A stretch of 64,000 bases of DNA from Spiroplasma alleghenense (lineage in GTDB: Bacteria; Bacillota_I; Bacilli_A; Mycoplasmatales; Mycoplasmataceae). The position numbers and the translations under genes are program-made. Each line of letters begins with the position of its first letter. Positions within the stretch are counted from its first letter, which is position 1. The notes under the pieces are model-generated. The model worked only from the letters and a program-made list of their open reading frames with translations. It did not search any database and had not been told where the DNA came from. Shown here piece by piece: positions 11,797-24,767 of this stretch. Where the stretch lies: the NCBI RefSeq assembly GCF_003363775.1, contig NZ_CP031376.1, positions 744,001 to 808,000 on the forward strand, in the 5' to 3' direction.

Positions 11797-13980
11797 ATGA
11801 AGAGATTATTAAGCATTCTAAGTTCAGTAGCTTTATTGAGTGGGGCCGCTGGAACAGTGGTTGCTTGTACTAGCAAATTTGACAAAAAGAAGGATGGTAA
11901 CTCGATTTTAGCGTACTTAACAATTGATGGAAATAAGGTCTCAATTGATTCAAGTAACGTTTTACTAGAAATGATTAACGAATCAGGTCCAAGTAATCGA
12001 AATAAATTTATTTTGGATATTTTAAAAATCCTAAATACATCGTTTTTTGTAAACGCTGATGCATTTGGAGAAGAAGTAGAGAAAGCCGGTAATTCAACTG
12101 AATACCAAAATCACGACTTAGTTAACCAATTAAAAGAATCTTATAAAGATATTCAATCAGAGGCAGAACGCCAAATTGCTGAGGAAAGAAAAAAATATAA
12201 AGATGATTACGGGAAAAAGGCAACTCAAAAATGATATGAAATGTTGGAATCAAAATTTAAAGGGATTAAAGATCGCGATGAATTAGATGCTAAATACTTA
12301 CAAAGCATTATAATTGGTGGTAACAAAAATACTACTTCTGAGATGTTAAACATTTTGCTAAATAACAACCAATTATCATATACATTCAAAAACCGTATCG
12401 ATATTATTAATCAAGAATTATTGGACTTAAGAGTTTACACAAAGGACAATAAAACTGTGGAAGACTACTACAAAGATACTGCAAAAAAAGATAAAGTTTT
12501 AATTCTTTGAAATGCTAGTGGTCAAACAAAAGATAAGTTTGCTTCAAGTCTAGCTGATTTTAGTGCCGAAGACTTTGCTTCTCATTTTGATTTAAAAAAA
12601 TCAGATAGTGAATTAGTAAAACAGAATGCTCCAATAAGCACTACTAGTTATGCTAAAAACACTACAGCGCGTGGGATGATTTCCAATTCACAAAGATTTT
12701 TCCTTGATAAATACTTTAATTACCAAAAACCAGTTGCTTTAACTGAGATTTCTTTCCCTTTCGAAACTAATCAAAAAATGGATGACGGGATTACCGCCGC
12801 TGATTTTGGATTAGAAACTGGTAAGGAAACCGAGTTAGGTCGTAATATTGAAACTTTTATTACAAAAGATACTAATGCCAGCTTAAAATACTGAGATGAT
12901 GCCTTAGATGCTCAAATCCCAAGTGGAACAGCTAAAAGATTTGAAAGTCTTTTAACTCTTGATGGAGATACAACCACCTTCTCAAATACTTTAAGAAGTT
13001 CAGTTTATGATTATCTACAAACTGCTTCTACTGGTAATGCTCCTGCTTCAGGTAGTGCGTTAGTTGATTCAATCAACCGTACTACAAATGGTAAAGTTTA
13101 CTCAGTTGTTGGTGATGGAGTAATTGCTTTTGTTGAATCAGATGGACTTCACTTTGTTAGAATTGAAGGTTTTAAAGAATTTAAGGCTGCAAACGGATCA
13201 TGAAGTTCAACTGATGGAGATAAAGGACCCGGAACTAGTGATAAAGAATTAGCTCTATTTGATGACTTTTGAAATAATAAAAATGATAGTGAAAGAATTG
13301 CTGCAATGCAAAATACTGAAAGCGAAACTTATAAGGGTTTAAACTCAAAAATTAACAATCAATATTTAAAATACTTAATTAACACTTCTCTAACAAAAGG
13401 AATTACAGGTTCAAAAACAGCTTATGACTTTATGTCTCAAGTTAAAAACTTTATTAAAGTTGAAGAACCTTCATCTGGGGAAGGAACTTATGTATGATGA
13501 ACTGCTATTTTAGAATACTATGAATACATGCTTGGTGCCCCTTCAACTAACTCACCAGAAGAATACAATGAAAAATTCTTAAGTAAATTTATTACTTTTG
13601 GAGAAGAAGGATCAGAAACAGCTCAAAATGAGATTGCCTTAAAAATGCAAAGCTGATTTATTAGTCATATTGGTTCAGCTAAGTCAACTGCTGCTGGTAC
13701 CCCTCTTACAACTCATGCTGAAAATCACAAAGCTTGAGTTAAATCAATTAAAGCTGGAAAAGCTTCAAACACTGGTTATCCTGAAGGATATATCGAAGAA
13801 AATATTCAAAAAATAATTGATATCAAACAATTTGGATTACCTTCAAATATGACAGGTTCAAATGTAGTTGATTCAAGTACGAAAACTATGAGTGCCGCTG
13901 AAGGTTTCTCAAAAGCAAAAGATTTTGATATCTTTTATAACAATAATAGTTATGCAGTAGTATTAGGAGGTAAGAGATAA
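11797..13980 (+). CDS. surface lipoprotein, 727 aa
   Basis: A 24-residue lipoprotein signal (basic start, hydrophobic core, VVAC lipobox with Cys-24) leads into a long secreted part with no further membrane segment. It would be anchored on the outer face of the membrane. The mature N-terminal ~150 residues are helical and charged, loosely reminiscent of SurA/PrsA-like chaperone N-domains, but this is a weak impression. The frame holds many TGA codons (for example a tandem pair giving WW near residue 567), all at plausible Trp positions. The ATG follows AAGGAG. It is coupled through TAATG to a second lipoprotein gene. The function is unknown. Confidence 0.85.
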
Positions 13981-15605
13981 TGAAGAAATTATTAGGAATA
14001 CTTGGTTCTGTAAGTCTCTTAGTTTCAACTAGTGCAACTGTAGTTGCCTGTGATACTAATAAAAGAATTACAGAAGCGACTCTAAACGATGAAATCCTAA
14101 GATCACTTTTAGCTTCAGTGTTTGGAGACAGACATGCTGCAGCAATGGATTTTGGAGATATCTTCAATAGTGGTGACATTCAAACATCATTGATTAATAT
14201 TATTAACCGAATGATTGCTCAAAATAACTACTTTAGAGCGACAAATAACTTATATGATAGTTTAGGTTTAGGTAAGAACAGCGAAGAAGTTGCTTTTAAA
14301 AAATACCAAGATTTAAACAACTCAATTGCAACTGATAAATTATATACTGATTACACAAAAAGTATTTCAGGAGCAGCCACTACTCAAGCTTTAGATTATA
14401 GTATTCGTCGTCAAAGTTATTCACTTAACGCCCAAGATTTAAAATTAGAGGTTGATGGTAAAGAAGAAACTTTCCAAAACGTTGGGGTAAAACTTCCTGA
14501 TGGGAAACTATGATCAATTCGTAATGAATTATCAACAACTGATTATAGCGAATCAATCCCCACTGCTAAAGTTTTAAGTGGTAGCGGATTTTCACTAGTA
14601 GATATTTCAGCTGGAACATCTTCACCAAAAGCGATTGCTGGTTATGATAACCTAACTGGAAAAGAAGCTTTAAAATATCGTTTCAAAGACTGATTTGAAA
14701 ACGAAATTCAAAGTAAAATTATTGAAAACTTATTATCAATTTCACGTCAAATACCTGAAGCCTTCCGTGTTGCTGCAGGAGCAGATAATAAAAAAACTGC
14801 TTACTTTAATAGATATTCAGCAATTGGTAAGTATTCACAAACTTGAAACAACTCAAGTACTCCTTGAACAAGTAATATTAAAATGGTTTGAGAATTCACT
14901 TACAAAAACACAAACTTTGGAACAGTTAAAACTGCTTTAGATAAATTAAAAGTAGACCAAAATTCAGGAGTATTAGCCCCTGGAGAAAGTATTGCCAAAG
15001 AAATTGCAGCCTTCCATTCTGGAGAATTAGAAAGTGCTAATTTATCTGAGGACGGAAATGATCCCTACTTTAGCCAACCTGGTTTCAAAGGATTTATCAG
15101 TATTAAAGATGGTGAAATTTATGGAACAAATAACTTAGCAACAGACTTTACTTATAAAACAAGTTTAGTTAATGCTAGTGAACCTGGAGTATTAAGTGAG
15201 AATGGTCACCTTTACTTCCAAGGTACTAAAAGTGATGAAATTTCAGTAGTATTCGTTTTACCTGTATACTTAATTCAATTATTAGAGGATTATGAAATTA
15301 AACGCGAAGATGATGGAGAAGCAGTTAAATTAAATCTTGGTCCAAGTATCGCAGATCCAAATCAATACGAAGACGTTTGAAATCAAGAACAAAACTTGAA
15401 AAAACATAGTAAAGATATTGAAGATTTAAATGAAAGTTTAAAACAAGATATGATTAATCAATTTCACTACATTGTTTCTCAAAACGAAGATGTATTGAAA
15501 GAATCAAAAACCTCACTTTATTCAATTTACTTAGATGCTGATGATATCCTTTATTCAGGACTTTGAGAATCAATTAGTAAATACATCAAAGATGAAGAAG
15601 ATTAG
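13980..15605 (+). CDS. surface lipoprotein, 541 aa
   Basis: It starts on the A of the upstream stop codon (TAATG) with GGAGG 10 bases before. The signal peptide ends in VVAC (Cys-24), so it is a lipoprotein of the same style as its neighbour. The mature part has no membrane segment; it ends in a helical acidic region. Paired gene order and similar size class suggest that the two act together, but sequence similarity beyond the leader is not obvious by eye. Many TGA codons read as Trp. A clear hairpin follows the stop. Confidence 0.85.
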
Positions 15606-16108: not shown

Positions 16109-16148
16109 AAAATAGACTTTAAATTTTATAATTTAAAGTCTATTTTTT
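16107..16148. terminator. bidirectional terminator between HIT gene and yhaM
   Basis: A perfect 19-bp stem (AAAAAATAGACTTTAAATT and its complement) with a 4-base loop has A/T runs on both sides. It contains the stop codons of both convergent genes. Confidence 0.9.
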
Positions 16149-17132
16149 TGTTGTTTTGGAATTGTAGTGATTTAAGAACATTTTTCCGTCCTCACTTAAA
16201 ATTCGACCACTTCATTCGTTATGTCCAACCTTATTTATCTCATCATTTATTTTATAAATTCTGGCATCTAAGCTATCAAAGGTTGATAAAATAACCGCTT
16301 CTAATAATACCGGCTCCACTGGAGATCCAAACTCATTTTTACCATGACTTGCTAGAACCATATGTTGTAACTTTGTTACCTCACCATTGATTTGCCCATC
16401 TTCATTAGTTAATAAGTTCAGTTCGATTGCAACATTATTTATAAAGGCATTCCCTATTGAAATGTGTCCTAATAGTTTTCCTTCTAAACTGTAATCTGTT
16501 CCTGTAATATCCGCAATTTCCACAACTTTACCAATATCGTGTAAAATTGATCCACATATTACTAAGTCTCAATCAATATTGGCATAGCCATAATTACCCA
16601 TAATAGCTTTTGCATTACGAACCAAGGTATAACTATGTCAAAACAAACCACCAACCACATTATGATGAATCGACATAGCTGCAGGATAGCTAAGAAAATC
16701 CTCTTTAAGACGACTTAAGATAGTTTCAGTAATCTTTTTATAAATTGGATTTTTTACTTCTCCCAATATCTTTGTAAAGGTATTTCAATTTTCTTCGATA
16801 TTTATTGGGGCACTCATATTAAAATCTTGTAAATTTACTCCCAATTTATCAAAATCGGATGGTTGAATAATTTTATAGCTATTTATTTTTAGTTGAATTT
16901 GATTACGATATAAGTTTGCAACTCCCTCCACACTAATTATTTGATTTAATGCAATGCTTTCTTTATCCTCATTTGTGGAATTTCATAAACGAGCCTCAAC
17001 TCTTCCGGTTTTATCAACTAAGTGAATTATTAAATAATTCATTCCGTTGCTACCTGTAGAAGAAATGATTTTTTCAATTCTGGCAATAATATTAATATTT
17101 TTATCAGAACTTTTTATGTCAAAAATTTTCAA
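16140..17132 (-). CDS. yhaM: 3'-5' exoribonuclease YhaM
   Basis: An N-terminal OB-fold (residues ~12-85) is followed by an HD domain, with HSYTLVRNAKAI and GSILHDIGKVVEI carrying the metal-binding His and His-Asp pair. This order and the 330-residue length fit YhaM, which trims RNA 3' ends. The start is TTG: it follows AAGGAGGG at perfect spacing and no ATG serves the frame. It lies 14 bases after the E2-like gene, so the two share an operon. TGA codons read as Trp. Confidence 0.9.
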
Positions 17133-17146
17133 TGTGACCCTCCTTC

Positions 17147-19129
17147 TTAAATTAATAATCCTGGGTTAATTATTAGTTTTGCAAACTCTTGCAATATTTG
17201 ATTTGCCTCTACTAAATTTATAGTTTTATTATTAAAAGTCATTGTAATATTAACCATATTTTTAACAAAGATTGAATTGTTTTCTGAAATCGGTTTTTGG
17301 ATTATGTTACCCACTCCAATTGCGAATAGTTCACCAGGCTTTAACTGTCAATTTCCTCGATTTAAATTTAAACTTCCAAAATCAATAATTGAAATTTGGC
17401 AATTACGATTTTCTGGATAGTCATTTCCAAATTGAAATTCTTGTTTCTGTTCAGTTAACATTTTGGCAATTTCATTAATTTCCTCATTTAAACTTACATT
17501 TATTGTTGGAAGAACCATTTCTTTTTTACTAAAGAGCGAGTATTTAATAACTTTTTCTTCTTCTTTTAAATGCAAACCATTTTTTTGTAAAACTTTATTT
17601 CAAGCTTTCATAACCGCTTTTATAAAAAAGGTCATTAAAGACAACTCTAATCCCTTTTCCATAAAAGGATGAGACATTAAGTCGTATAAATTACTCAAAG
17701 AAGTTAAATCAACCTCTAAATCAATTGTAGAATTTGACAAGTAATTTTGTTGACCAAATGAGGTGTTTGCCTTTGTTTTTTTAATAGGATAACCTTTTTT
17801 TGAAGCATTTGCTGGCACCACTTTTTTAGGAGAATCTTTTGTTAAGAAATTGAATTCTCTAATAGTTAGGTCAATGTTTGATTTTAAATCTTTTTCCTCT
17901 TGTTTTATCTCAACATTTGGAGTTTCGGTTTCAGCTAATTCTTTTGCTAATTCTTTTTTTATCTCAGAAATATTTTTAATTTTTTTTGGATTTAATTCAA
18001 GGTTTGATGAAGTATCTTCTTGCAATAATTCAATTTCTTTTTGATTTTCTGGTTCAATAAAATCTAGTTCTTCTGTTAGAGTCTTGTTCAAACTTTCTTC
18101 TAATAAGTTTTCCTTAAGTTCATCCCATGTTAGAAAATTAATTCCATCTTGGGCGTATAAATTAGTTTCTTGCGTTTCAAAATTTTTATTGTTCAAATCA
18201 TTTTTATCTAATTTTTTATCTATAACTGTTTGCCCTTCGTCTTCAAGTATATCTATCTCAATTAGTTCTGCTGATTCGGCATTTTCCAAAATTTGGGTTT
18301 TCTCATAAAGTAAATCAAAGTCTTGTGTTTCTTCAGCTAGATTTTTTAAATCAGTTTCAATTGAAGAGTCCAAAATCTCATCAGAATTAATCAAAATTTT
18401 ATCAGTTTTATCAAGTGTGGAAATAAAGCTTGACGCAGGAACGTTAAAATTTTCCCCATCAAAAACAGTTGAAGTAGATTCGCCAATTGAGGTATTATCG
18501 AAGTCTTCAAGTCGCTTATCAATTACATTTCCGATTATATCTAATTCTTGAGTTAAATTATCAAAACCAGTTGTAACTTGATCAAATCTAGTACGATCAA
18601 GAACATTTTCTTCGCTTTTAGAAATTTCATCAGTTCAATTATTTGATAATTGTTCTTCTAAAATAATTTCTCTAACTGTTGTTTTTAACGGTGTTGATGG
18701 TTTTGTTTGCATGTTTACAGTTTCCACAATAATTGATTGTCCACTTTCTTCCGCAATTTCCATAGTCATTGTCTGAGCGTTTTCGTAAATATCATGGTCT
18801 CGCGAATCATATTTAGGTTGATTGTAGCGTGGATTTTCGGTGATGACATCCTTTAGTGAACGACCAACGCTTTTAACACTATGGATATTTTTGACTTCTT
18901 GTTCGTTAAAAATATCAAAAATAATATCACCGTTACTTACAATTAAAGATTCTAAGATATTTATGTTTTTTATCACACCATTAACGTGAGCAATAACATC
19001 AAAAGTTTCTAATTGAGTGGAAATTTTAGATATTACTTGACCCTTTTTTACAATATCTCCATCAAGAACGTATACTTTTTCAACAATCCCTTTTAAGTTA
19101 CTACTAGTTTTAAATTTTATTCTATTCAT
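17147..19129 (-). CDS. degenerate lipoyl/E2 acyltransferase-like protein, 660 aa
   Basis: The N-terminal ~75 residues resemble a biotinyl/lipoyl domain (GDIVKKGQVISKI, then HVNGVIKNI and SNGDIIFDI), but the lipoylated Lys position reads STQLETF, so no attachment Lys is present. Residues ~100-430 are acidic, low-complexity and probably disordered. The C-terminal ~200 residues follow the E2 (dihydrolipoamide acyltransferase) catalytic fold: VDLTSLSNLYDLM, then ISIIDFGSLN and FAIGVGNIIQKP, ending in the segment where E2 has DHRxxDG. Here that segment reads NNKTINL, so catalytic His and Asp are lost. It looks like a non-catalytic structural or binding relative. It is in one operon with yhaM. The fold assignment is moderate; the function is unknown. 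Confidence 0.7.
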
Positions 19130-22435: not shown

Positions 22436-23821
22436 TTAAATTCAAGTCCCCTTTTTCTTCATTTTTGAAATTAAAATACTTGCATAAATATTAATGATTA
22501 AACCAAAGAAATTTAAGAAAATTAAGTCTATTATGTAGTTCTTTCTTAAGTAAATTGCATAATCTAAATAGTTTGATATTTTTCTGATATTTAAAAATAT
22601 TCAACAGAAACTTAAAATGAATATTGCTAGAATAATAAAACTTCATACCGGACCAATTAAGGTGAAATCTGAATAATCTATTCAACCAATTGCTCAAAAA
22701 ATAAATATTAACTCAAAAAAAGTAAATAATAAGAAAATATTTAACATAATTAAAAAAACTGATATTCGATTTATTCTATACTTGAATGTTTCTAATGGTG
22801 ATTCCTTCACAAAATTAATTTTAAAAATATAAATTGAGCTCGCGAAAAAATAAGGAATATTGAATGTAATTGCATCAAAAATACAGTTTCCTAATGGTAC
22901 TGGGATTAGATTTTCTAAATAATATTTTTTTCTAATAACCGAAAATAAAGTAGACAAATTAATTCATAAAAATACTCATAAGTAGCCGTATTTTAATTCC
23001 TCTCCAATAACTAGCGTGAATCTTAAATAAAATAGAATAATATTAGTAGCTAATGCAAAAATTGTAAATCAAAAAAAAGACCATAAAATTAAACTGACCG
23101 CTTTGTTGAAGCCAGTTTTAACGTTAATTCCTGAATTTTTATTATACTGCATTTTTCATACATCATACATTGGATTTTTAAAAATTGAACGTAGCTGTAA
23201 AATCGAAAAAATTGGATTAAGACAGAATACCGATAGTATTCCAATTGAAACTTTTTTACGCGCCTCAAAATCACTCAAGTAAACTTTTTTTGAATTATTC
23301 ATTACATATATGATTAAAGGCATTAGAAACGGAGTTAAAATAATAGATAAACAACCGCTAATCATTAGGAAAATATGTCACAATAAATTGGATTTATTGC
23401 GATAATTTTCATCAGTGATTATAACGCTAGCTATCGTTTCGCTCTCGTTTTCCAAACTAGTAATCTTCATCAATTGAGGAATAATGAAAAAATTAATTGA
23501 GAAAATTGCCACCAAAATAAGTGCGTCTCGGTTTTTCTTGAGCATTTCAGTTGAGGAAAAAGCGATTATCAATCACGAACTAGCTCAAAAACCAGATAAA
23601 AAAACCATCGGTAGAGTTAGTTTTATGAAAACAAAGTTTCTATGACGTAAATTTTCAATTTCATAATTAGCAAATCACTTTGCAAAAGATGTAATTAGGA
23701 CAACAAAGCAAGTCAAAGAAATCATGAGCATTAACAGACCAATCATAGTAAAAACCTTATCAGAATAAGTGTTTTTAAATATCATGGATTCTCTTTTTTT
23801 CAAAAAATCGTTTCTGACCAT
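22436..23821 (-). CDS. polytopic membrane protein, 461 aa
   Basis: I do not recognise the family. After a basic N-terminus there are about ten hydrophobic segments spread over the whole length, with short charged loops. It ends with a basic tail KMKKKGTW. Many TGA codons read as Trp. The start is the ATG 7 bases behind GAGGAGG; an upstream GTG in frame has no RBS. It follows the membrane-anchored hydrolase gene by 13 bases and is probably in its operon. A transporter or lipid-related membrane role is possible but not shown. Confidence 0.75.
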
Positions 23822-23834
23822 TTTTTGACCTCCT

Positions 23835-24767
23835 CTAAATACTTTCAAATATTGATTCAGCTTGTTTTTCACTTAAAATTAAGTGTCTTGTATTTTGTAA
23901 AATTTTAAAATTTTCTTTATTAAAACCCAAAATTTTTTTAGCAAATATCTTGGGATTAACAAGTTTATCATTATCTCCTTGAATTATTGTTATTTTATCT
24001 TGATTTTCCATAATTGACTTTCAAAACTTATTAGATAAAACCCTAAATTGAAAAAGTTCGCGAACTGAAATAGCCCCAGCAACCTCAAGACAAGCTTGAT
24101 AATTTTTAATTTCTGATTTATTATCTGTTAAATCTGCAGGATTGTAATTTAGATTAATTAATTTTTGAGAACTAAAAATGGTTCCCAAAAATATCTTAAA
24201 ACGCATCGACAAAGTGTAACTATAGATTAATTGTGTACAAATTGCTAGTAATATTATTTTTTCAACTCTTTCATGCTTGATAATACTTTGAATAGTTAGA
24301 GTTCCAAATCCTGATGCCAAGATAATAATTTTTTGACTAGGATACTTATTTGAAATATAATCAACCACTTCTTTAACATCACTTAAATATGCCCCTAAGT
24401 TACGTTGATCATCGTTTTTGTTTTTGCCATAGTTTCTAAGGTCAAAACCAATTACTGAGTTCAAAGGTTTGTTTTTTAGCATATACAGCTCTAAATTATC
24501 AAATTGCTTTGATGAATAGCCCAAATCATGGAGGCACAATATTATTTTTTCACCTTTTGGGTTAATCTCCCCCATCCAGTTAAGCTCGTATTGATCTGAA
24601 TTAATAAAGCACTTTTTTTTAACAAGTTCTGGAATTTGTTTCTTAGAACTTTTGTTTTTTAAACTATTAAAAGTGATTAACTTTATTACTATTGCTAATA
24701 ATGCTACAAAAGCAAAAAAACCAAGAGCGGCGTATAAGAAAATATAAATTGCTTCAATAAATGTCAA
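23835..24767 (-). CDS. membrane-anchored alpha/beta-hydrolase-like protein, nucleophile missing
   Basis: One N-terminal membrane helix (residues ~5-35) anchors an alpha/beta-hydrolase domain of about 270 residues. LCLHDLGYSS fits the oxyanion loop and GFDLRNYGKN the strand after it. At the nucleophile elbow, where GxSxG is expected, the protein reads ILASGFGTL: aligned with GTSMG of the hydrolase at position 1-591, Gly replaces Ser. The acid (IIQGDNDKLV) and histidine (NTRHLIL) positions remain. The start is a TTG behind GGATGGAG. It may be an inactive or altered relative. It is co-oriented with the membrane protein at 22436-23821. Confidence 0.75.

Follow-up and report, generated by a model that had tools for sequence, protein, structure and literature searches.

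We describe a gene of helical Spiroplasma, here called class C, whose product has the fold of a dihydrolipoyl acyltransferase (E2) and neither of the two features on which lipoylation and acyl transfer depend. This dead E2 is probably kept as an oligomeric scaffold that carries lipoyl-like binding arms. Judged from its distribution and its phylogeny, class C is a conserved, ancient family of single origin and not one decayed gene. If true, a bacterial E2 inactive at either end, which has apparently left PDH and persisted across a whole Spiroplasma radiation, would clearly exemplify a metabolic megacomplex whose core became a scaffold; it offers a testable link to the RNA-processing enzyme YhaM. 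The gene lies in a stretch of 64,000 nucleotides (the window; bases 744001-808000 of a genome consisting of a single contig of 1,336,077 bases), whose genome has genes that open only with TGA read as Trp (code 4). Its layout is given in Table 1.

Table 1. Layout of the class C gene and its downstream neighbour, in window positions
Feature	Positions	Strand	Basis
Pseudo-E2 gene, class C, 660 aa, code 4	17147..19129	-	conserved family
N-terminal lipoyl-like (barrel-sandwich) domain, residues 1-77	18899..19129	-	PF00364 25.4 bits; hhalign against genuine lipoyl domains E 1.7e-16
Lipoyl hairpin STQLETF, residues 37-43, Leu40 in the lipoyl-lysine position	19001..19021	-	column count
Acidic linker of low conservation, residues 78-455, no peripheral subunit-binding domain found	17765..18898	-	charge, dN/dS, no PF02817, pLDDT mostly <50
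E2 (2-oxoacid dehydrogenase acyltransferase) fold, residues 456-660	17150..17764	-	PF00198 50.7 bits; 1b5s E 3.6e-7; model Z 16.6 with 4n72_A
NNKTINL, residues 633-639, at the DHRxxDG position	17213..17233	-	His -> Asn634, Asp -> Asn638
C-terminal NPGLLI, residues 655-660, at the E2 inter-trimer 'knob' position	17150..17167	-	Asn655, Pro656, Gly657 and Leu659 in top 7/183 columns
yhaM-type 3'-5' exoribonuclease (OB + HD), 14 nt downstream of class C	16140..17132	-	Pfam, NCBIfam; adjacency in related genomes

What is left of the E2 architecture? An earlier, sequence-only reading had proposed a lipoyl-like N-domain with STQLETF at the attachment position and an E2-like C-domain with NNKTINL in place of DHRxxDG, and both assignments hold. 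The N-domain matches PF00364 Biotin_lipoyl over residues 14-73 (25.4 bits; Pfam cut-off 22.1), and profile comparison of class C N-domains with genuine lipoyl domains (hhalign; prob 98.7, E 1.7e-16) places Leu40 in the lysine column, since it sets ISTQLETF on VETDKVTA. The C-domain matches PF00198 2-oxoacid_dh over residues 461-659 (50.7 bits, E 2e-13; cut-off 23). A single-sequence query against solved structures (phmmer) matched 1b5s, the E2p core of B. stearothermophilus, at E 3.6e-7, with FNNKTINL paired to FDHRMIDG. Structure prediction, which that reading had put forward as a check, likewise returned an E2 fold: the monomer model of the C-domain (pTM 0.65; mean pLDDT 62, mid-domain <50) aligns with E2 cores at Z 16.6 over 184 residues (4n72_A), and 49 of the 50 structure matches listed for it are E2-type proteins or complexes. 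The fold is less certain in genus g5 and in part of g9, where the E2 domain has strongly diverged. In the full-length model, confidence is low outside both domains and linker pLDDT is mostly <50. The linker had been described as acidic and ~330 residues long; it is acidic (residues 81-455, 22% D+E, net charge -39), but spans ~380 residues. A Pfam search of the class C protein up to E 1 found no peripheral subunit-binding domain (PF02817) in it, whereas the genuine pdhC of the same genome matches that family at 50.3 bits.

Both catalytic features are lost throughout the clade. The lipoyl-lysine column holds Lys in 0/37 class C proteins as compared to 16/16 genuine pdhC, and is filled by Leu, Asn, Ser, Val, Met, Phe, Arg, Gln or Gly. 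We considered a shifted attachment site, as many members of the citri-type genus carry a lysine one place later (QNKV), and rejected it as a conserved site because this residue is Arg in other citri-type members and the lysine is absent in most other genera. Similarly, the catalytic histidine column holds His in none of 36 class C rows but in all 34 pdhC rows, and none of the alignments made for the class C protein restores the His/Asp pair. Within the class C E2 domain, the His and Asp columns rank 117th and 102nd in conservation among 183, whereas the NPGLLI residues N655, P656, G657 and L659 are within the seven best-conserved columns. At the same time, dN/dS of 0.03-0.04 (approximate ratios) indicates strong purifying selection on each domain. 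Between the window's genome and G002, a pair whose dN/dS is approximate because its synonymous divergence is high, the values are 0.027 for the N-domain, 0.043 for the E2 domain and 0.29 for the linker (linker range 0.29-0.40); the E2 domain of a g9 pair (G046-G031) gives 0.042. Thus the active site drifts in domains that are otherwise maintained. With its fold kept, both catalytic features gone and selection purifying, the protein strongly supports its earlier description as a pseudo-acyltransferase; judged by the defining features, which it lacks in our alignments, class C is not a functional E2. The loss of lipoyl lysine and catalytic histidine together makes a scaffold most likely, rather than an enzyme.

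To what extent is class C shared among related bacteria? We surveyed 60 genomes of the window's family with PF00198, the yhaM neighbourhood and a class C profile of our own; PF00198 misses class C in most of g9, where the latter two recover it. Of the 42 MreB-bearing family genomes, 40 have class C: 3/3 of genus g1, one each of g4, g5 and g6, 14 of g8 (one with a broken copy) and 20/20 of g9. Intact copies amount to 39 genomes in six genera. It was not found in the two genomes of g10, nor in the 18 genomes of g2, g3, g7, g11 and g12, on part of which the class C profile was run. Genus g8 is the citri-type genus, with S. poulsonii and S. phoeniceum among its members. Beyond three Spiroplasma loci, a contig scan with A1 retrieved nothing but an ordinary E2 of Psychrobacillus. 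We built a tree of 82 E2 domains by maximum likelihood (36 class C rows, 12 class B rows); in it, class C forms one clade apart from genuine pdhC (support 100/99); branches within it are long, which leaves the inner branching order uncertain. The broken copy belongs to the citri-type genome G027 (L054 5794-6648), where class C is truncated N-terminally and altered C-terminally, and where pdhC was not found either. In the open-licence literature, we found no description of a class C family in Spiroplasma.

The same earlier reading placed class C in an operon with yhaM and not with pdh genes. This is correct for the source genome, which has no pdh genes near class C, and the yhaM link is general: a same-strand yhaM lies downstream of class C in 37/37 loci, 36 times within 380 nt and once behind a 1.28-kb insertion. 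In G030 and G037, ~7-8 kb of other sequence separates the two genes, with yhaM still downstream. The remaining neighbours vary, with trmFO in g1 and g9, coaX- and leuS-like genes in g4, and phosphoglucomutase-like and NADH-oxidase-like genes in g8; outside the window, these names denote sequence resemblance, the Pfam scan having covered the window's own genes only. The separation from pdh, in contrast, does not extend to the citri-type genus, where the gene order is pgm, C, yhaM, nox, lplA, pdhABCD, so that pdhABCD follow a few genes downstream of class C. Among the loci examined outside that genus, we saw no pdh genes adjoining class C. All 60 family genomes encode yhaM, among them the 20 in which the search for class C came up empty, so YhaM can do without class C. 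As of 2020, the particular physiological roles of this enzyme were described as unknown (PMC7196914). The window further holds two adjoining large lipoprotein-like genes on the opposite strand (11797-15605, +; 727 and 541 aa), and comparable tandem lipoprotein-like genes lie near yhaM in g4 and g9 loci. A predicted membrane protein of 478 aa without Pfam or NCBIfam match is encoded between metK and an alpha/beta hydrolase gene (22436-23872, -).

Class C is not the only dead E2 of this genome, which has three E2-type genes: A, the genuine pdhC beside pdhB and lpd; B, of 1005 aa; and C. Class B lies outside the window at ~841.0-844.1 kb (G000:C1; L060 5042-8059, -). It combines a lipoyl-like N-domain, a long linker and an E2 domain that reads DQR at the motif (DQRIIDA in the source genome); the whole protein measures 890-1021 aa in most genera. 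In the source genome its N-domain scores 21.9 bits, just below the Pfam cut-off, and its E2 domain, far better conserved than that of class C, scores 204 bits to PF00198. The lipoyl-lysine column holds no conserved lysine (Lys in 2/11), although the hairpin of the window's genus, VETSKGEF, does have one; the catalytic His is replaced by Gln in 11 of 12 rows. Those 12 rows form a separate clade (100/99) in the same tree, and class B is not linked to yhaM. By score, it occurs in all 42 family genomes with genuine MreB, the DQR being read in fetched copies only. Close to it (L060 2148-4047, -) are genes for a protein of ~380-476 aa and for a short one whose N-terminus is of membrane type, a pair kept together across several genera (L063, L066, L067, L069, L055) and, in the source genome, without Pfam or PHROGs match. 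Outside the family, genus g20 has an intact class B in G078 and G067 and an interrupted one in G088 (L134), while none was found in G073 and G083, and MreB declines in parallel. One genome of this genus retains class B, MreB and pdhC whole and others have them damaged or lack them, which may represent a natural loss series. Neither class appears to be the ribbon protein SPE-1201 (85.8 kDa), judged by size alone: the shorter class C of that genus is ~65 kDa (582 aa) and its class B >100 kDa. A dependence on Fib was also set aside, since published work describes S. sabaudiense as swimming without Fib (PMC9582952, PMC9663586).

Could class C simply be a decaying, functionless duplicate of pdhC? 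The very long branches in the tree and the truncated copy in G027 might be taken that way, but the low dN/dS of both domains contradicts it, as does an intact gene in 39 genomes of six genera within one ancient clade, and we give this explanation next to no credence. Nor do we think it at all likely that class C has rebuilt its active site for a catalytic activity of its own, as yet undetected. The CAT/E2 fold does underlie several acyltransferases; however, the columns of the old active-site motif vary within the class, and the best-conserved positions are mostly hydrophobic or in the C-terminal knob. A weightier alternative, if still an unlikely one, is that class C is a structural subunit of the PDH complex, which would co-assemble with PdhC and only organise or regulate that complex in the manner of E3BP/PDHX. 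The two share a fold, such dead E2-like subunits are known (PMC10156792), and the citri-type class C sits upstream of pdhABCD. Against this, class C has no E3-binding domain, its lipoyl-like arm is dead too, and pdh genes are not seen beside it outside the citri-type genus. An exclusive PDH role is also at odds with G019, G022 and G023, which keep class C intact although pdhC was not found and the pdh cluster is broken up, transposase-like fragments lying close by; there, changes are too few for dN/dS among the pdhC-less strains, and the loss of pdh may be recent.

A further explanation starts from the cell body: class C, perhaps together with class B, might belong to the MreB-based apparatus for cell shape and swimming. 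The 42 family genomes with genuine MreB are precisely those with class B, and 40 of them also have class C; in g20, a reduced or missing MreB goes with a broken or missing class B; and missing Spiroplasma components needed for swimming have been inferred (PMC9663586). Yet families f5 and f10 carry MreB or MreB-like proteins without class B, which makes the cytoskeletal link only a lead, and isolated ribbons gave Fib, MreBs, FtsH and SPE-1201 (85.8 kDa), none annotated as E2 (PMC9582952). The non-helical genera may moreover be a single lineage, so that the correlation with MreB may amount to one event. Taken together, we regard this as improbable. Slightly less so, but still doubtful, is a combination in which classes B and C co-assemble into a non-metabolic E2-type core, a pseudo-PDH whose unmodified lipoyl-like domains would organise machinery such as RNA 3'-end processing by YhaM or the MreB-based cell body.

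We therefore return to the scaffold. In this view, a dihydrolipoyl acyltransferase gave up lipoylation and acyl transfer at an early stage of Spiroplasma, and its descendant was kept for its architecture. Its C-domain probably still trimerises, the NPGLLI knob may link trimers into a multivalent core, and the long, acidic, flexible linkers would extend the lipoyl-like domains outward as cofactor-free protein-binding arms. In canonical E2s, a C-terminal 3-10 helix forms the 'knobs and socket' contact between trimers, and an actinobacterial E2p in which this helix is displaced remains trimeric (PMC10415282); in class C, the knob is present at the level of sequence only. Reuse as a scaffold or binding protein, as first proposed, accounts best for an E2 domain that conserves its assembly motif above all else while the active site drifts, whereas oligomerisation, the binding role of the arms and the identity of the partner are steps that we infer. 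Since yhaM is the sole neighbour gene kept in all six genera, YhaM would be the likeliest client, a tentative assignment to which we give less than even weight; the linkage could instead reflect operon inertia. Such a change of use has a precedent in the same organisms, as Spiroplasma has already turned Fib, a nucleosidase relative, into cytoskeleton.

Dead 2-oxoacid dehydrogenase subunits (E3BP) and dead carrier domains (BADC) were known before. E3BP carries an E3-binding domain and a functional lipoyl domain and operates within PDH; BADC, a dead BCCP relative without an E2 domain, acts in acetyl-CoA carboxylase as a partner of BCCP and biotin carboxylase. Like class C, the mitochondrial E3BP (PDHX, protein X) is an E2 paralogue with an E2-type core devoid of the catalytic histidine, and plays a structural part (PMC10156792). 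Class C differs in that it lacks both the E3-binding domain and a functional lipoyl domain, and in that three pdhC-less genomes retain the class C gene. Plant BADC shares with class C a carrier domain of biotinyl/lipoyl fold without the modified lysine, and serves as an assembly 'glue' of acetyl-CoA carboxylase (PMC11926652); the E2 domain sets class C apart. Judged by the features that define these two groups, class C is a member of neither. Two further likenesses are found within Spiroplasma: genuine PdhC (E2p) has the same succession of lipoyl domain, linker, E2 domain and C-terminal knob, and class B the same dead lipoyl-like and E2 domains around a long linker, but as a separate clade with a better-conserved E2 domain and without the tie to yhaM.
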